Source: Mogibacterium sp.
GTDB taxonomy: Bacteria; Bacillota; Clostridia; Peptostreptococcales; Anaerovoracaceae
Assembly (NCBI GenBank): GCA_024403035.1
Contig: JAKSSP010000012.1
Location: 1 to 39,980, forward strand
Reading direction: 5' to 3'
Length of the DNA stretch: 39,980 nucleotides
The translations under genes were made by a program, and so were the position numbers. Numbering within the stretch: the stretch's first letter is position 1; every line of letters begins with the position of its first letter. The notes below the pieces were generated by a model. That model was not told where the DNA came from. It worked only from the letters and a program-made list of their open reading frames with translations, and made no database searches. Shown piece after piece: positions 3,027-29,999 of this stretch.

Positions 3027-3596
3027 ATGAGTTTAAGTGCAGCTGCAGGCAGTGATGTCTGCAGTTTTTACTATGTAAAGCACACTCTCGATGCCTACAA
3101 TGATAAAGTAAACTACTACATTCCTATACTCGCAGTCCTGATGGTGGCGCAGCTCATCGGAATGGTCATATTCGGACCTGTGATGAGAAAGACATCAAAG
3201 AAGATGGCGATCATGATCGCTGCTCCGGTAAGACTGATCGGAGTCCTTGGTCTGTTCGCTTTCTCGCACCCGGGAGTATCGCTCGTGCCTATACTGGCGC
3301 TGGCCAATGCGGGTCTTGCTCAGAGCGCTGCCACACAGCACGGGATAGGAATTTGCTTCATAATGGCACCTGCTATCCTTTCCGCGCTGCTTCTTGTTGT
3401 AGCGATCCTCTTCCCGATGACCAGCGAAGAGTTTGACACCGTTCAGAAGGAAGTAGCCCGCCGCAAGGGTGAGGACACAAGCAAGACGACTGACGAGGAA
3501 AAGAAGATGCTTGAAAGCGTGACGGGATTTGCCTACGACAAGCTCTGGAGCAAAGATAACGCCGGAGTGAAGAAGGGCGAACCTGAACTCCTCTGA
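3027..3596 (+). pseudogene. Deleted GPH-family sugar:cation symporter
   Basis: The 189-residue frame matches the glycoside-pentoside-hexuronide:cation symporter type (MFS_2). It has transmembrane segments around residues 30-52, 58-80 and 85-103, then after a junction near NAGLAQ-SAATQ the last helix (about 108-130) and a hydrophilic tail beginning MTSEEFDTVQKE. Intact members have about 450-480 residues and 12 helices. Here the N-terminal half is absent and an internal block between the junction residues is also missing, including the segment with the conserved loop that normally follows. The frame is open because the internal deletion happens to preserve it. It is most likely non-functional and ends at a good terminator. 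Confidence 0.65.
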
Positions 3597-3620
3597 TCAG
3601 ACTGAACAATAACGAATTGA

Positions 3621-3653
3621 AGCGCCTCTATATGAGGCGTTTTCTTTTTCTTA
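3621..3653 (+). terminator. Intrinsic terminator after the symporter remnant
   Basis: CGCCTC (3623-3628) pairs with GAGGCG (3634-3639) around a 5-base loop and is followed by TTTTCTTTTTCTT. Confidence 0.8.
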
Positions 3654-3686
3654 TAATACATTTACAATGTTTATCATTACCTTGTG

Positions 3687-3715
3687 TTGACAGTTTTTGT
3701 CTGTTAAACTAACTC
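3687..3715 (+). promoter_or_regulatory. Candidate promoter of the channel operon
   Basis: A perfect TTGACA at 3687-3692 with a 17-base spacer to TAACTC at 3710-3715. The -10 is weak, so the call rests mainly on the -35 and on the position just downstream of a terminator. Confidence 0.4.
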
Positions 3716-3757
3716 TGAATAATAAGATATGTGCGATAAAAACGGGGAGAATCGCAT

Positions 3758-6700
3758 ATGGAACATATGGAAGAAAACAAGATAAGAGTGGATGAAGAGA
3801 CCCGCAAAAAGGCAAACCGGTACTTCTTTACAAAGGTGCTGGTCAACCTTGTGCTGGTGATCATAGGTGCGCTGTTCATTGCTTTGTTCATGCGCCAGAT
3901 GCAGGCAAAGACGGCTCTTGTAAAGCAGGAGGAGACAAGCAAGCTTGCTCTCGATGAGGCGGTAATGTCTCTGGAAAAAAATGAGCAGGACGCGGGTGAC
4001 CTGGCTCTCATATTCCACGACAGCAATCAGGACGTGCTTGGTGACATGAGCAGACTGTTCTCAAGCGGTCTCTTCGAATCGCTGGCAGATGCTGACAACA
4101 CTGAGAGGTCGGCGATGTTTGCCGACATGGTGGAGCGCTCGGGGGTGCAGTATTTATTCCTGATGTCTCCGGACGGCAAGATAGCGCTGTCACCGGAAGC
4201 ATCTCTCTACGGAGTTAACCCGGCTGCCAGGGCATATATGACACAGGAGAATGTGAATGACATTCTGAAGGGGGCCAAAGACAGTGAAGGGAATGTCACT
4301 CCTGTAACGGTCAAGAACCAGTACGGCACGTACTTTTTCTATTCGACTCCGTACACATACAAAGATATCACATATTATCTTGTGCTGGGGACTGATGCCT
4401 CCGTACTTGATGTGCAGATGGCGTCTCTTACGGACGTCTCTGTTGTGCTGAGCCGAGTGGCTGTGGGGAAAGGCGGCTTCGTTTTTGCGGTGAACAAGGA
4501 GGACGGCACATTCCTTTACTATAAGAATGGCGAAGAGATACTGACCGGCCAAAGCGCTCTTGCCTGCGGGCTTTCTGAAGCGGCTTTAGAGGATGGCTAT
4601 TCCGGCATCGAGACCATAAAAGGCACCAGGTATTATTGCGTGTCCAAGGATTACGGTGACCGTACCATGATCTCTGCTGTAGTGCAGACATCAAATCTGT
4701 ATAGGAATGATACCTATGCGCTGTTCTGGTCGATACTCGGTTTTGTACTGATAATGCTCGTGTGCCTCGCATATGCGGTGATAGTGAGAAACGACTTTGT
4801 GAGCCGTGAGGTGAAGACCGAAAGACAGATCCTCAACCCTAACTCTTCGAATCCGACGATCTTTGACAGATCCATCCTCAAGAAGGTGTTGCCGCTCCTC
4901 ATAGCGGGAGTTCTGGTGATGTATGGGATATCCTTCTATACACAGACAATGCTTGAGATCACCGAGGGAATAGAGAAATCCGATATCGCTCTGGATGAGA
5001 TTTCCGGAAGGTATCAGGAAAGTCTCACGAACCGCGAACTTATAGAAGATTACTACAACAACAGGTCCCTCGCCAAAGCCAGGCTCATAGCCTTCCTCAT
5101 CGAGGAAGATCCATCGCTTCTCAACGCAAACAGCGAGTTTTATCACAATTATTACGACGATAAGGGCGATAAGAAGTTTATTACAGACGACGAGGGCAAT
5201 CACCTCAAATCCATCTCCGAGTCGGCAAAGCTGCAGGAGCTCTGCGACGTGAATGACATAGACTCTATCTATGTGTTCGATGAGAGCGGTCATACGATAG
5301 GCACAAATACCCCTAACTGGTTCTTCACCGTAAGTCATAATGAAGAGGATCAGTCGTATCCGTTCCTGCAGATCCTGGACGGCAGGTTAGACAGCTACGT
5401 GCAGGAAGCCATGACCAATGATCTTGACGAGGCAACGCAGTTCATCGGAGTCGCCTTTAAGTACTACACCAGAAAAGACGCGAACGGCAATACGGAATAT
5501 GTGTCGAGTTTTGAATATGATAAAAATAAGGAAGGGATCACGGTGCACAGAGCCATGGTACAGGTAGGCCTTGATGCCGACACTTCCGCCAAACTGCTTG
5601 AGTCCACGGATGTAGCCAATATTCTCTCTACAAATATGCTGACCGATGGTTTTATAGTCATGTTTGACTCCACCGATGATCATCTCTGCACCTATTCGCC
5701 TGTGGATGTGAGCATAGGCCAGTCGGCAAAAGAACTGGGCGTATCGCCTAACGCGTTCACCGGAGATGATTACTATGGCTTTGCTAAAATAAACGGTGTC
5801 AAATACTTCTCGTGCTTCAGGTATGCCGATGACTATTTCATAGGCACCGCGCTTCCGACGTCCGGCATGTACAGGGCCCGCGGAACCATATCGCTTATCA
5901 CGGCGCTGGTATGCTTCCTCCTGATACTGATCCTTACCGGAACGGTGACGCTCACAAATGAGGAAGAAGAGCAGCTTTATGAAGTCATGAGTGAGGACAG
6001 GGAAAAGAGGGGTATCAACTCCGCGATATTCAACATAGTCCTGCCGTCCGGAAAAAGCGCTTCTACTGTCAAGGCAGCAGCCAGGTGGGACAACCGCAGG
6101 ATCACATGGGGAGAAAAGAACCCTGAGCAAAAGCTCGGAACGATACTGGGTGTTATCGGCACAGTGCTGATGGTATACGTCATCATCGTAGCTGCCGGAG
6201 CGGACAGGATATTTGATGAGAACTCCATAGTGCGCTATATACTCAGCGACACATGGGACAGAGGCTCCAATATATTCGCCTGGACCATGTGCGTCCTGGT
6301 ACTGCTGACGATAGCTCTTGGCGTAGAACTCTTCCGCATTCCGGTAAGGCTGTCGACAGCACTGCTCGGAGCGAGAGGGGAGACTGTCGGACATCTGCTG
6401 ATTTCCGTGGTGAAATACGGCGGTACTTTGGTAGCGGTATTCTACTGCCTGTATCTGCTGGGCATAGATTCTACAAGGCTGCTCGCCAGTGCCGGAATAC
6501 TGTCGCTGGTCATTGGTCTTGGAGCACAGAGTCTGATAAAAGACATCATAGCGGGTATCTTCATAGTGTTTGAAGGAGAATTCCGTGTGGGCGATATCGT
6601 CACCATAGGCGATTACCGCGGTACTGTAATGGATATAGGTCTGCGTACCACAAAGATCCTCGGAGCCGACGGCAACATCAAGATCTACAACAACAGCGAG

Positions 6701-7108
6701 ATATCCGGCGTCCTGAACATGACTCAGGAGGCTTCGTGGGCCATGACAAACATAGACATCGAATACGGACAGGACCTCAATTACGTGGAAGAGGTGCTCA
6801 ACAGAGAACTGCCTAAACTGCGTAAAGCAAATCCGCTCATCACCGGCGGCCCGACATACCTCGGCGTGCAGAACCTCAAGGACAGCGGTGTAGAGCTGCT
6901 TGTCGCATGCAACTGTAATGAGAAGGATATCCTGGGCGTAAGGCGTTTCCTCAACAAGAGCGTACTTCAGATATTCTATGACAACGACATAAACGTTCCG
7001 TTCCCTAATGTCACGATATCTACTCTCGAGAAAGAAGAGAAGAAATCATTTGACGAGCTGCTTGAGGAAAAGAAGAAAAAAGATAAGAAGAAAAATATAC
7101 TGGAGTGA
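3758..7108 (+). CDS. MscS-family channel with two extracytoplasmic Cache-like sensor regions, 1116 aa
   Basis: The C-terminal third is an MscS channel: membrane segments at about 793-816, 838-858 and 879-902, then the pore helix with GLGAQSLIKDIIAGIF (about 920-935) and EFRVGDIV at the start of the cytoplasmic beta domain. Ahead of it come TM1 (24-45), an extracytoplasmic region (46-320), TM2 (321-343), a cytoplasmic linker, TM3 (373-393), a second extracytoplasmic region (394-705) and TM4 (709-732). Both outer regions contain Cache-like strands such as GGFVFAVNKEDGTF and GFIVMFDSTDDHL. MscS itself is about 286 residues, so this is a large sensor-channel fusion. The tail is Lys-rich. ATG 3758 follows GGGGAG at 3744-3749. 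A solute-binding lipoprotein gene begins four bases after its stop. A ligand-gated rather than tension-gated channel is an inference. Confidence 0.85.
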   Translation: MEHMEENKIRVDEETRKKANRYFFTKVLVNLVLVIIGALFIALFMRQMQAKTALVKQEETSKLALDEAVMSLEKNEQDAGDLALIFHDSNQDVLGDMSRLFSSGLFESLADADNTERSAMFADMVERSGVQYLFLMSPDGKIALSPEASLYGVNPAARAYMTQENVNDILKGAKDSEGNVTPVTVKNQYGTYFFYSTPYTYKDITYYLVLGTDASVLDVQMASLTDVSVVLSRVAVGKGGFVFAVNKEDGTFLYYKNGEEILTGQSALACGLSEAALEDGYSGIETIKGTRYYCVSKDYGDRTMISAVVQTSNLYRNDTYALFWSILGFVLIMLVCLAYAVIVRNDFVSREVKTERQILNPNSSNPTIFDRSILKKVLPLLIAGVLVMYGISFYTQTMLEITEGIEKSDIALDEISGRYQESLTNRELIEDYYNNRSLAKARLIAFLIEEDPSLLNANSEFYHNYYDDKGDKKFITDDEGNHLKSISESAKLQELCDVNDIDSIYVFDESGHTIGTNTPNWFFTVSHNEEDQSYPFLQILDGRLDSYVQEAMTNDLDEATQFIGVAFKYYTRKDANGNTEYVSSFEYDKNKEGITVHRAMVQVGLDADTSAKLLESTDVANILSTNMLTDGFIVMFDSTDDHLCTYSPVDVSIGQSAKELGVSPNAFTGDDYYGFAKINGVKYFSCFRYADDYFIGTALPTSGMYRARGTISLITALVCFLLILILTGTVTLTNEEEEQLYEVMSEDREKRGINSAIFNIVLPSGKSASTVKAAARWDNRRITWGEKNPEQKLGTILGVIGTVLMVYVIIVAAGADRIFDENSIVRYILSDTWDRGSNIFAWTMCVLVLLTIALGVELFRIPVRLSTALLGARGETVGHLLISVVKYGGTLVAVFYCLYLLGIDSTRLLASAGILSLVIGLGAQSLIKDIIAGIFIVFEGEFRVGDIVTIGDYRGTVMDIGLRTTKILGADGNIKIYNNSEISGVLNMTQEASWAMTNIDIEYGQDLNYVEEVLNRELPKLRKANPLITGGPTYLGVQNLKDSGVELLVACNCNEKDILGVRRFLNKSVLQIFYDNDINVPFPNVTISTLEKEEKKSFDELLEEKKKKDKKKNILE

Positions 7109-7112
7109 GTCC

Positions 7113-8222
7113 ATGAGGAATCATAGAGAAAGTGAAAAAAGAAAAAAGACACTGATAAGGTTGATCGCCATCATGATGGCCTTCACTCTTGTGATGCTCA
7201 TGACAGCGTGCGGCGTATCATCCGGAGGTGATCCGGCGGAGACAAAGGACCCTGAAGGTGTAACTGTTGTCAAACTGGCGTTTTATCCGCACGGCCATGT
7301 CCTTAATGTAATAGCTGAGGATCAGGGCTACCTTGAAGAAGAGGGTATAAAGGTCCAGTATGTAAAAGTCGATACGGATGAAGACGTGTTTAAAGGGATC
7401 AAAAACGGGACGATAGACATTGCTTCAAACTCGGGCACCAACCTGCCGCTTGAACGTATCGCCGCAGGACAGGATCTTACCATATTCGGAGGCTATCTGC
7501 TGACGGGCTGCATGCCGGTATTCGCAAAAGAGGATACCGAGTGGAAGGGCATAGAAAGCCTTATAGGAAAGAAAGTAGCTTTTGAGCCTAACCTCTACTG
7601 CATAACGGGGCCTCTACTTGACAAGGGCTATGATCCGCTCAGGCAGATCAACTGGTATGAAACAGGCACTCAGGAAGAGCGCATACAGGCTGTAAAGGAA
7701 GGCAAGGCGGATTACGCTCTGGTCGGAACACAGCTCAATAATGTGATAAATACCGATCCGGAGCTGAAGGTCTGTACATACGCAAGCGACGTGCTGCCGG
7801 AGTATTCATGCTGCCGTGTGGTCGCAAGCACTGAGTGGGTCAATGAGAACCCGGACACGGTCAAAGCTCTGCTCAGAGCATGGATCCGGGCACTGTCATA
7901 CTATGACAGTCACCATGATGAGGCTGTCACGCTGCTGGTAAAGGAAACCGGCCAGACAGAAGAGTCTATCAGGGCATATCTGGATAATCCTCATTGTGAC
8001 ATAAACGTGGATCCAATGAAGAGCGCGGTCGACAGAGCCTGGAAATACATGGGCGAATTGGGGCTGCTCAGCGCGTCGGCATCGAAGATCGATATCGACG
8101 AACACATCAACACAGTTCTTTACAAAGAGGCGCTCGACGAGTGCCAGGATAAATACGGCAATGACAACTCCAAGTTCTACGAGAGGATGCAGGGGCAGTA
8201 TGCCAGAAACAACATGAATTAA
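7113..8222 (+). CDS. NMT1/SsuA-like solute-binding lipoprotein without an ABC partner, 369 aa
   Basis: The N-terminus is a lipoprotein signal: basic residues, a hydrophobic stretch (about 16-29) and the lipobox LMTAC with Cys33. The mature part has the fold signature of periplasmic-type binding proteins of the NMT1/THI5/SsuA group: VVKLAFYPHGHVLNVIAEDQ, GYLEEEGI, then GTIDIASNSGT and later a hinge segment. Such proteins usually deliver nitrate, sulfonates, pyrimidine precursors or similar to an ABC importer; here no permease or ATPase is adjacent. ATG 7113 is chosen over an upstream in-frame start because GGAG at 7102-7105 fits it and it immediately yields the signal peptide. The gene is four bases downstream of the channel gene and ends in a strong terminator, so the two form one operon. 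The ligand is unknown. Confidence 0.85.
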   Translation: MRNHRESEKRKKTLIRLIAIMMAFTLVMLMTACGVSSGGDPAETKDPEGVTVVKLAFYPHGHVLNVIAEDQGYLEEEGIKVQYVKVDTDEDVFKGIKNGTIDIASNSGTNLPLERIAAGQDLTIFGGYLLTGCMPVFAKEDTEWKGIESLIGKKVAFEPNLYCITGPLLDKGYDPLRQINWYETGTQEERIQAVKEGKADYALVGTQLNNVINTDPELKVCTYASDVLPEYSCCRVVASTEWVNENPDTVKALLRAWIRALSYYDSHHDEAVTLLVKETGQTEESIRAYLDNPHCDINVDPMKSAVDRAWKYMGELGLLSASASKIDIDEHINTVLYKEALDECQDKYGNDNSKFYERMQGQYARNNMN

Positions 8223-8241: not shown

Positions 8242-8274
8242 GAACTCCGGGGATCGTTCCCCGGAGTCTTTTAT
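8242..8274. terminator. Bidirectional terminator between convergent genes
   Basis: ACTCCGGGGA (8244-8253) pairs perfectly with TCCCCGGAGT (8258-8267) around TCGT, followed by CTTTT on the plus side and an A-rich tract on the other side. It serves the channel operon and probably the minus-strand lysozyme operon as well. Confidence 0.9.
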
Positions 8275-26970: not shown

Positions 26971-28212
26971 CTAGAGGTAGGTCACTTCGACTTCCTTCAG
27001 ATAACTGCGCTCCAGCGCGCGGGCTATCCTGTCGACGACAGGGAAGCGTACGCCTATCTTGGCGGCAGCCGCAGGGTCATCTGTGTCATTGTTGATCTTT
27101 GTGCCCATGACTATCTGCAGCTGGTCGATGTCTCTGAGTATCCTTATGATACGCTTTGCCGGATCCTCAGGCATTTGCTTGAGAAGGACCTTCTCTTCGA
27201 GGCGTTCTGAGACTTCTGTCAGTGTCAGCATGCCCTCGGTGACCAGCTCTATGCCGTCAATGATGCTTGCAGGCGGCAGGTTTCCGGATGGCGATCTGTC
27301 CGCCTTAACGTCTTTTCCGAGCTCGCGCGCCACTATCTTGGCGGTCGTTCCGCCGCATACTATGACACGTCCGTCAAAGTCTTTTATAATGGTACCCAGC
27401 TGCCTGTCAGACTCGCGGCTCCTCGGAGCTCCCGTGACCAGCATGGCACGCTTTGGCTTTCTGACGGATACAACAGCGCATGTGATGTCATCGTTGGCAT
27501 GATAGCGGTCGCGCTTATACGCTTCGGTGACTATTGCTCTTGCCAGATCCCTCGAATTGATATACGGATCCTTCTGAAGGAGGCGGTGTACGAATTCGCG
27601 GACGTTGTCCGTGCCCCATTCACCCAATTGCGCATCCGTGGAATGGATGCGTTCAGTGTCCACCCCCGGCAGAGAGCCCAGAACCAGACCGGACTGAGCG
27701 ACGCCGTCACTGAAGAATATGAGCCTGTCGCCTATCTTCATGTCAAACGATGAGGTGTGAACTATCTCTTCCTTGACTGCTGCCTTGCGGCGCAGCTTTG
27801 TGGATGTCTTTTCCCATTCCACAGGCTCGTTATCCACAAATCTGAGGCTTTCCGGATTGTCATATTCGACCAGTTCTACATTAATAAACGACTTGTCATC
27901 GGAGAAGGCGACCTTCGCGATGGTGAAAGTAGAATAGCTGATGCCTTTCTCCCTGTCTACCGGCAGGGTGTCCATGATGATCTCTGCCGAATGTGAAAGA
28001 TCCAGCGGAGAGAAGGACATCTTGTTGGCCATATGCGATGTAAGTGTGGCCAGTACGCTGGCTTTGACTCCGCTGCCCAGACCATCGGAGAGGGTGGCTG
28101 TGATGACATTCGAACCCGGGCTCCTGTCAAGCAGGAACACATCGCCGCCTATCTTCTGACCGTTCTTATATATCTGAGAATAGTCGATGTCGATGCAGAT
28201 ATCGTTCATCAT
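26971..28212 (-). CDS. SpoIIE-type PP2C Ser/Thr phosphatase, 413 aa
   Basis: Residues about 1-255 form a SpoIIE/PP2C phosphatase domain. Metal-binding acidic motifs include GGDVFLL near 22, LSDGLGSGVKA near 41-51, IFFSDGV near 164-170 and DDITCAVV near 240. Such enzymes remove phosphate from Ser/Thr of partner proteins. The C-terminal 160 residues (from about 255, with IVCGGTTAKIVARELG) form a second domain that I do not recognise. ATG 28212 overlaps the stop of the sensory hydrogenase by ATGA; a second ATG at 28209 is possible. Tight coupling to a hydrogenase-like sensor implies that the phosphatase is its output. No cognate Ser/Thr kinase is in the window. Confidence 0.85.
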   Translation of the reverse strand: MMNDICIDIDYSQIYKNGQKIGGDVFLLDRSPGSNVITATLSDGLGSGVKASVLATLTSHMANKMSFSPLDLSHSAEIIMDTLPVDREKGISYSTFTIAKVAFSDDKSFINVELVEYDNPESLRFVDNEPVEWEKTSTKLRRKAAVKEEIVHTSSFDMKIGDRLIFFSDGVAQSGLVLGSLPGVDTERIHSTDAQLGEWGTDNVREFVHRLLQKDPYINSRDLARAIVTEAYKRDRYHANDDITCAVVSVRKPKRAMLVTGAPRSRESDRQLGTIIKDFDGRVIVCGGTTAKIVARELGKDVKADRSPSGNLPPASIIDGIELVTEGMLTLTEVSERLEEKVLLKQMPEDPAKRIIRILRDIDQLQIVMGTKINNDTDDPAAAAKIGVRFPVVDRIARALERSYLKEVEVTYL

Positions 28213-29999
28213 TCGTCCGTACCGCCTTTATCTACTACCAGATCGCTGCTTCCGCGGTTCTCAGCGCCGATATTGAATTCTTCGATGATGGAATTCAGAA
28301 CCAGCTCTGTCTCTGCCGCGTTCTCTCCAAGCAGGGATGCGATCTGCTGCACTGTGCTGAGTGACTTTGTGATGACTTCTTCAGCCTTTTCTACTACAGC
28401 CTCTCTTCTGATGACCGGCGTCGTGATATCTTCGAACATAGCGCCCAGCATAGCCTTGTTCTCGACCAGGAAGAAGGTGATCCTCATGACTTTGTCGCCA
28501 TGCCTGAACCTGTACTGCTGAGGTTTGTTCATGAAGAACTGCTCGCGGAACTTCTCCTCGAACGGAACGAATACCGATACAGGCGTGCCGTGGAATGACC
28601 TCAGGCCTTCTGCGTCGAGGAACTCATCCGGATAGTCTTCGAATATCTTTATGAAGAGACGGTTGCACTCTACGATATTGAGGTCGTTGTCTACGATAAC
28701 TACGCCGTGCGGGATAGTGGAGAGCAGTATGTCCACCTTGCTTTCAGCGTCTTTACGCATCTTGGTGACGCACATCTCGGTCTCAGCGAGTCCGTCAAGC
28801 ATGGCGCGCGCCATGTCGCGGCATGCAGGATATCCGCAGCCGCCGCAGTTGAGCTCGTCTTCAGGTGTGGTCTTGCCAAGCTTGGCGAGCGCCTCAGTGA
28901 TCTCTTCTTCTGTATGATTAAAACCGTCGACTGCTGCCGGCTCAGGTGCCGGCGCGCCGTCAAGAATACCATAGCCTTTCTCATAGACTTCTCTGGCGAA
29001 TTCCCCGTCCCCGTCGAATACGTCAGGCTCACCCAGGCGTTCAATGACATGTGATGCAATGGCTTTCTTGCGGACTACCGCGGAGTCTTCGTGTGAAGTT
29101 CCCGGTCCGTTGATGCATCCGCCGTCGCAGTTGAGAGCCTCAAGGAAGTCGTTGGTGTGTGTGCCGCTGAGAGACGACATGACGCGGGTAACTCCGGATA
29201 CGGAGAGGGCAGACTGCTCTATGAAGCGATTCTCCCATATCTTGGAAGTTTCGATCTGTCCGTTCTCGATAGGATATATGGCAGCCTTGCCGGCCTTTGA
29301 AGGTACAAAGTCTACAGGGATGCCGGTATCCATGTTGGCGAGGTCTATGTTCTCTTCTTCAAGCCATTGGCGGACCTCCCTGAAAGTGAGCGATATGTCA
29401 GGATAGCCCGGATGCTCATCAGCCTCTATCTTCTTTGCCACGCATGGTCCGATGAAAACTATGACTATATCGTTGCCGTAAAGCTTGCGCAGGTACGCGC
29501 TGTGTGTCTGCAGCGGGCTTGGGACCGGCGCCAGTGCATCGATGCTTTCAGGGTAATACTTTCTTACAAGCTGGACTACGGAAGGGCAGGCCGTGGATAT
29601 GAACGGCGCGTTGCCGTGATCCTGCATGTACATGTCAAGAGCCTGAGATACCAGAGCCGCGCCTATTGCGGTCTCTGACACGGCATGGAAGCCAAGCTTG
29701 TAAAGCGCTCTTATGAAGTTGTCCTCATAGCCTACGAACTCAGAAACATATGAAGGCGCGAGCGAAACTATCACCTTGCGGTTCGACAGGAAAGCCATCC
29801 TGACTCTGTCGGTATCGTCCCTTATGACTTTTACCGAGTTAGGGCATTCATTCACGCACGTGCCGCAGAAGGTGCAGCGCTCATATATTATCACCGCGTG
29901 GGCGTCTTTAATCTGGATCGCCTTTACAGGGCAGTGCCGCACGCAACGATAGCAGTCGCGGCAATTGCTGATCTCAGTATAAATAGGTTGCTTTTCCAA
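28209..29999 (-). CDS. Sensory [FeFe]-hydrogenase with Fe-S and PAS domains (group C-like), 596 aa
   Basis: Domains in order: two [4Fe-4S] motifs (Cys13/16/19/23 and Cys42/45/48/52), an H-cluster domain, an Fe4-type cluster motif (Cys385, 388, 393, 410), a PAS domain (about 423-530) and a helical tail. H-cluster ligands are seen as STACPS (Cys138), GPCVAKK (Cys186) and NCDGGCINGPG (Cys291, Cys295). In catalytic enzymes the first motif reads TSCCP; here the proton-relay Cys is Ala, as in sensory group C enzymes. It probably senses H2 or redox state instead of turning over rapidly. The start is TTG 29999 with AAAGGAG upstream. It is co-transcribed with the SpoIIE-type phosphatase. Group placement is by domain order and motifs, not by phylogeny. 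Confidence 0.88.
   Translation of the reverse strand: MEKQPIYTEISNCRDCYRCVRHCPVKAIQIKDAHAVIIYERCTFCGTCVNECPNSVKVIRDDTDRVRMAFLSNRKVIVSLAPSYVSEFVGYEDNFIRALYKLGFHAVSETAIGAALVSQALDMYMQDHGNAPFISTACPSVVQLVRKYYPESIDALAPVPSPLQTHSAYLRKLYGNDIVIVFIGPCVAKKIEADEHPGYPDISLTFREVRQWLEEENIDLANMDTGIPVDFVPSKAGKAAIYPIENGQIETSKIWENRFIEQSALSVSGVTRVMSSLSGTHTNDFLEALNCDGGCINGPGTSHEDSAVVRKKAIASHVIERLGEPDVFDGDGEFAREVYEKGYGILDGAPAPEPAAVDGFNHTEEEITEALAKLGKTTPEDELNCGGCGYPACRDMARAMLDGLAETEMCVTKMRKDAESKVDILLSTIPHGVVIVDNDLNIVECNRLFIKIFEDYPDEFLDAEGLRSFHGTPVSVFVPFEEKFREQFFMNKPQQYRFRHGDKVMRITFFLVENKAMLGAMFEDITTPVIRREAVVEKAEEVITKSLSTVQQIASLLGENAAETELVLNSIIEEFNIGAENRGSSDLVVDKGGTDE

Follow-up and report, generated by a model that had tools for sequence, protein, structure and literature searches.

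In a 39,980-nucleotide stretch of Mogibacterium sp. DNA (contig JAKSSP010000012.1 of assembly GCA_024403035.1, hereafter the window) a gene for an MscS-type channel with two sensor domains of the dCache kind in tandem is directly followed by a gene for an orphan solute-binding lipoprotein, and the two products on balance probably make up a two-protein chemosensing channel in which the lipoprotein acts as a docking extracellular co-receptor. The channel gene occupies 3758..7108 of the plus strand and encodes 1116 amino acids (aa), and the lipoprotein gene occupies 7113..8222 of the same strand (369 aa; ATG at 7113, stop ending at 8222), with 4 bases between the stop of the first and the start of the second. 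What is established for the pair is the gene order, the co-inheritance, the lack of importer genes nearby, the predicted folds and the predicted location of the relevant parts outside the cell. The arrangement suggests a two-gene unit of gut bacteria in which a molecule outside the cell, besides the stretch of the membrane, controls a valve.

What identifies the larger protein as a channel, and what are its outer parts? The MscS core, consisting of the TM2/TM3 pore helix and the cytoplasmic cage (6386..7042, aa 877-1095), aligns through to 3t9n and 3udc, with an E-value of 4.2e-38 against TtMscS (3t9n), and both pore and cage are complete. Pfam places MS_channel_2nd, which covers the MscS pore and upper vestibule, at 1.2e-14 and MS_channel_1st at 1.3e-5, the former being found in 13/13 orthologous channels. 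Ahead of this core, and on the same strand, hydropathy indicates a first transmembrane segment (TM1; 3818..3907, aa 21-50), the second and third with a cytoplasmic turn (4706..4945, aa 317-396), and a fourth, a cytoplasmic linker, a fifth and a sixth (5870..6355, aa 705-866). Between them lie the first (3908..4705, aa 51-316) and second (4946..5869, aa 397-704) dCache-like sensor domains, both predicted to be outside the membrane. In the predicted model of the channel both of these regions match solved or modelled dCache domains, displaying a long N-terminal helix and two PAS-like modules outside the membrane, and they also align to one another (hhalign of one against the other, probability 89, E 2.3e-6). 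An earlier statement, in a preliminary description of this DNA, that the channel contains Cache domains is upheld by these matches; Pfam is weak on the point, with no match of its Cache models to the window channel, dCache_1 at E 0.1 or better in only 3 of the 13 orthologous channels (best 5.1e-6), and a score of 36.8 bits, under the cut-off of 45, for a Cache model in the channel of locus G043.

The smaller protein is recognised by the Pfam NMT1 model (8.1e-18; 65.5 bits against a cut-off of 20.5), as the preliminary description had proposed in calling it an NMT1/SsuA-type lipoprotein four bases behind the channel, and its predicted fold is that of a type II solute-binding protein (SBP). The lipobox cysteine C33 (codon 7209..7211, plus strand) is invariant in a 17-row alignment, and the protein is predicted to be located outside the cell. 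In the part of the genome covered (77% complete) there is one strong NMT1 match, namely the lipoprotein gene itself, while a second at 5.9e-6 falls on an SBP_bac_3 gene. With the queries used no SsuBC-type ATPase or permease is present near the pair, the sole ABC ATPases of the window being at about 22.1-25.1 kb, and the lipoprotein was correctly described as lacking both.

The adjacency extends well beyond one genome. When an alignment of the lipoprotein was searched against one genome per species, 16 relatives were obtained, and every one with at least 57% identity (13/13, L091-L103) is encoded immediately downstream of a channel of this type; outside this set are L104 (46% identity), and L105 and L106 (23-27%). 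Twelve of the 13 have the whole channel gene, 53-91% identical to that of the window (at L102, as at G989 below, the contig begins inside the channel, with the sensor part out of view), and in these 12 and the window the intergenic gap runs from -29 to +34 nucleotides (nt), with a 4-base overlap in 6/13. A search of 349 genomes of the family adds the pair in G997, G1013 and G989, the channel of the last being cut by the contig end, which brings the total to 17 genomes (13, the window and 3) from several Bacillota families; five G loci coincide with the contigs of L091, L093, L094, L095 and L096 and were counted once. The proposed functional link between the two genes passes this test, and the notion of a pair confined to this genome is rejected. 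The hosts are Mogibacterium (Clostridia, Anaerovoracaceae), Solobacterium and other Erysipelotrichaceae (Erysipelotrichia), one Lachnospiraceae and unclassified Clostridia, and 8/13 genomes are from goat or sheep gut by title or are Solobacterium or Mogibacterium metagenome-assembled genomes of the same projects. Errors in the binning of such genomes are unable to fake adjacency on a single contig; a chimeric contig could do so, in a single case.

Adjacency of SBP and receptor genes is therefore conserved, and little else around them is. When the open reading frames (ORFs) flanking the pair were compared between the window and the 13 loci, common neighbours were found only between near relatives (the window and L091; L098 and L099), together with one 41% match upstream shared by L093 and L094, which are of the same family; what remains is the pair itself with its antisense shadows, plus a few scattered matches of low identity. 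Between families, the channel-lipoprotein pair is what the loci have in common. The channel is also rare, in that 15/349 family genomes reach E 1e-70 and 2/398 genomes of a phylum sample, its own included, give a full-length match. In a class-wide search of 391 genomes with the sensor part of the channel, there were, besides its own genome, partial matches only, in seven genomes. Three of these seven loci were inspected (G324, G460, G392 and G302 being left out); one encodes a chemoreceptor (MCPsignal, HAMP), the other two each a SpoIIE protein, and none a channel.

Where did such a lipoprotein come from? The next-best 12 relatives after the orthologues, at 24-29% identity, are all in ABC operons, with ATPase and permease genes no more than 3 kb away in 12/12 (tblastn, with queries supplied by three of the loci) and 10 of those permeases confirmed by Pfam. 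The same queries find no such gene beside the pair in any of 17 pair loci (0/17; flanks short in L102 and G989), and the lipoprotein as part of an adjacently encoded ABC importer is rejected on this ground. The expectation that homologues of the lipoprotein are not ABC-linked therefore stands for the close ones and fails for the distant ones, and the objection from ABC linkage would carry weight on so broad a use of the word homologue. In a tree of 27 SBPs a single branch (support 99/97) parts 14 channel-linked from 12 ABC-linked rows, the ABC row L079 being very long and flagged, and 33 positions that are invariant in 15 channel-linked SBPs differ in every one of the 12 ABC-linked proteins. 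The protein thus differs from the NMT1/SsuA/NrtA/CmpA/ThiY binding proteins of ABC importers in having no adjacent permease or ATPase and in forming a separate clade, and it was probably recruited from an importer lineage. L104 (7161-8633, Faecalicatena contorta), a half-length lipoprotein relative lying by an ABC ATPase fragment, falls on the channel side of the tree and is possibly a decayed importer near the root of the channel-linked clade. A CysCysArg motif, considered as a mark of the channel-linked proteins (15/15), was rejected as such, given that it is common to 11/12 of the ABC-linked ones and so is uninformative on the channel link.

The neighbours of the ABC-linked relatives offer a lead to the ligand, based on a scan of 10 neighbour proteins, picked by eye, at 6 of the 12 loci. 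Corrinoid-dependent methyl-transfer genes lie near the relatives at L070 and L078 (URO-D, B12-binding) and L073 (MTTB), nitrogenase-like genes near that at L072, and an enolase-superfamily gene and an aminotransferase gene are neighbours at L075 and L080. A methylated small molecule may be guessed as the ligand of the lipoprotein.

Approached from the channel, the same partnership takes on a wider form. A long channel with sensor domains, or a recognisable part of one, is encoded at 16 loci (G000, G135, G169, G091, G1016, G1023, G997, G1013, G989, G1021, G1028, G1014, G043, G126, G155 and G962), of which 14 are readable, the other two being G1028, cut by a contig end on the 3' side of the gene, and G1014, a remnant. 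Because the searches differed in cut-off and drew on genome sets that overlapped in part, channels of greater divergence may have escaped detection. An NMT1 lipoprotein stands downstream of the channel at 9 of the 14 readable loci. At G043 and G962 a lipoprotein from a different SBP family, SBP_bac_3 (7.4e-29 and 5.8e-29), stands immediately upstream instead; the two lipoproteins are 40% identical and their channels 30%, and the called SBP_bac_3 and channel genes share 19 nt in G043 and lie about 60 nt apart in G962. With 3 SBP_bac_3 matches genome-wide in G043 and 6 in G962, chance contact with the channel is estimated at roughly 0.3% and 0.9%, respectively, a post hoc figure that assumes about one gene per kb. 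At L148 the SBP_bac_3 gene lies under a longer antisense ORF, as the full ORF list reveals; such full lists cover L148, L065, L080 and L081. Finally, the lipoprotein at G1021 has an alpha/beta-hydrolase fold (Abhydrolase_1 3.9e-13; L174 2749-3693); its gene overlaps the channel stop by one base, in the usual place of the binding protein directly behind the channel. Altogether, the immediate neighbour at 12 of the 14 readable loci is a lipoprotein of a kind able to bind a small molecule.

In a tree of the channels (without G989, G1014 and L102) the labels NMT1, SBP_bac_3 and other need two changes, the minimum possible; G126, G155, G1021 and G1028 form one clade (99/99), G043 and G962 have long branches, and G1028 was labelled other with its downstream side unread. 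The lipoprotein slot thus seems to be exchangeable between an NMT1 type, an SBP_bac_3 type and an alpha/beta-hydrolase lipoprotein, and the occurrence in the same place of SBPs from an unrelated family and of a protein with the hydrolase fold points to a slot for ligand recognition and not to one pathway. The functional link that the preliminary description had drawn from the window is strengthened by these further partners. They also raise the possibility, more tentative than the reading of the pair itself, of an undescribed class of chemically gated tandem-dCache MscS channels with exchangeable lipoprotein co-receptors, by which different outside molecules would, in different bacteria, act on the same solute-release pore.

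Several of these channel loci have features of their own. In the G1014 remnant (L177 5182-5871) the channel sequence breaks off after 200 residues and continues as the last part of the lipoprotein gene, as a single deletion of most of both genes might leave it. At G155 (L066 2859-5906) STAS, SpoIIE phosphatase/ATPase and HD_4 genes stand behind a channel about 60% identical to that of the window, which hints at a link to partner switching of the stress type. At G169 (L063 14584-17499) an NMT1_3 (TAXI-type) binding protein and a large membrane protein, TRAP-permease-like as judged by eye, are encoded about 2 kb upstream of the channel and are separate from the pair, with another gene between. 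In G196, of the same genus, an MscS-type protein of 846 aa (L068 6041-8581) has shorter outer regions and no adjacent SBP among the listed ORFs; it was left out of the long tandem-Cache channels (28% identity over 176 positions), and in a later search its locus was matched by the channel query alone.

How might the two proteins work together? In the proposed sequence of events the lipoprotein, anchored on the outer face of the membrane, would capture a small molecule and, once loaded, would dock on one or both dCache domains that the channel exposes outside the cell. These domains would then relay the signal via their transmembrane helices to the MscS pore, the opening threshold of which would shift, allowing ions or osmolytes to flow. 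Docking, ligand, gating, the direction of flux and the physiological effect are all parts of the scheme that we infer. The distances within the SBP and channel families correlate (r 0.60, with 0/10,000 permutations as high), a value that is not specific, as shared descent alone would give it.

A number of observations weigh against this scheme. Divergence of the SBP correlates with that of the two Cache domains at r 0.46 and 0.57 and with that of the MscS core at 0.63, so that no Cache-specific signal of co-evolution is apparent, and such co-evolution was set aside as a supporting argument. The model of the channel is weak overall (pLDDT 65.3, pTM 0.50), with low confidence in the pore region. 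Two long channels have no visible partner, which implies that the channel may work alone: G126 has no such lipoprotein, with a SRAP gene upstream and a phosphoribosyltransferase-like ORF (named by eye) downstream on the other strand, and none is seen at G155, where the downstream side is taken up by the genes described above and the upstream side is unread. Adjacency alone is also no proof of contact, as PMC11113362 found no binding when SBPs encoded close to the kinases AgtS and AruS were tested.

Would the lipoprotein need to touch the channel at all? The Cache domains could bind the signal directly, with the lipoprotein concentrating or buffering the same molecule and making no lasting contact. 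Many of the matched dCache structures themselves hold a ligand, at least one long channel (G126) is without an adjacent partner, and a preliminary concentration of ligand has been proposed for Cys-loop channels (PMC549065), yet the strict conservation of the pair and its short gaps make this arrangement fairly unlikely. The amino-acid-binding motif of dCache receptors, searched in the form Y-x(3,6)-R-x-W-[YF], is also absent from 13/13 channels, which speaks against amino-acid ligands only. Somewhat less likely again is co-expression without contact, where the lipoprotein would serve the retention or uptake of a solute and the channel osmotic relief, the two being merely co-regulated. The next relatives of the SBP are indeed components of ABC importers, and an SBP gene near a receptor gene need not be linked to it (PMC11113362). 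A retained uptake role fits poorly with the result of an SsuC-type permease query (a single query), which has no match in G169, G091 and G043 and only weak ones, with E above 1e-5, in G000, G135 and G962, and the pairing of an unrelated SBP family with the same type of channel also counts against it.

Improbable, finally, is the channel as a conduit for the bound solute, with the lipoprotein delivering or collecting the molecule that passes the pore. Binding proteins normally pass their substrate to a membrane protein, and MscS pores do let small organic solutes through; these pores are, however, wide and passive, so a high-affinity carrier would gain little, and the two large sensor domains would be left unexplained. 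Docking of the lipoprotein as a co-receptor remains the preferred reading.

Signalling through a binding protein has known forms in the sensor kinases LuxP-LuxQ, XylFII-LytS and AioX-AioS, and by analogy the lipoprotein could be viewed in the same way, as an adjacent SBP serving as extracellular co-receptor of a transmembrane sensor; the output here is a channel pore and not a kinase, and the docking is only proposed. On this reading the pair would be binding-protein-assisted sensing of a known kind, but with a channel as its output. Among MscS proteins, bCNG channels likewise add a ligand-sensing part to the MscS core and sense cyclic nucleotides inside the cell, whereas here the sensors are outside and accompanied by a separate binding protein. 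In PMC4560390 bCNG proteins are named as ligand-regulated members of the superfamily, which also has subfamilies with added ligand-binding domains and large extracellular loops, some of them without observed mechanosensitivity. A close precedent is in bacterial Cys-loop (ART-LGIC) channels, for which PMC549065 predicts operons that include a stand-alone PBP-II or Cache gene; fusions of such channels with PBP-I and Cache domains are described there as well, and MscS is not mentioned. The likeness is in a channel gene beside a stand-alone binding-protein gene and in Cache or PBP modules as extracellular channel sensors; the differences are the channel superfamily, the two Cache-like domains within the MscS channel itself and a binding protein that is a lipoprotein. 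The pore is that of MscS, with no Cys-loop model among the Pfam families matched. A survey of SBPs in model bacteria (PMC9602780) notes that SBPs also stimulate transmembrane receptors and does not contain the word channel, and PMC8846402 does not mention MscS. Among the open-licence papers that a literature search listed, none was on an MscS channel paired with a binding protein. The assertion that no system of this form had been described holds for MscS in the literature searched, but the Cys-loop/PBP-II operons qualify it, and the preliminary interpretation as a whole is partly supported.

MscS is in textbooks a tension valve, and if its pore were controlled by a captured extracellular molecule the superfamily would gain a receptor branch, comparable in logic to the ligand-gated channels of neurons and built on a different pore. 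The outputs of binding-protein signalling would, likewise, extend from kinases and chemoreceptors to ion channels. With only two genes, conserved in gut bacteria, the unit is directly testable with purified parts.

The surroundings of the pair in the window complete the description. A hairpin at 8244..8267, listed on the plus strand and detected on both, closes the unit as a terminator, in agreement with the terminator noted earlier at the end of the lipoprotein gene, and an intrinsic-terminator-like hairpin lies upstream of the pair (3619..3643, plus strand); a scan of 3643-3757 gave no promoter-like site at the threshold used. Carriage of the pair by a phage was rejected, as a scan of viral contigs returned three pattern-matched stretches and no relatives, and carriage by a plasmid was rejected with no plasmid match at 1e-20. 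Upstream, at 3027-3596, is an MFS transporter ORF of 189 aa. The relative L062 has the transporter intact, with 503 aa (5567-7078), and the window ORF covers its C-terminal portion; the copy in the window looks truncated. Elsewhere, on the minus strand at 26971-29999, a PP2C/SpoIIE-type phosphatase-like ORF overlaps the end of an ORF resembling an iron-only-hydrogenase-type ferredoxin protein, both recognised by eye only.

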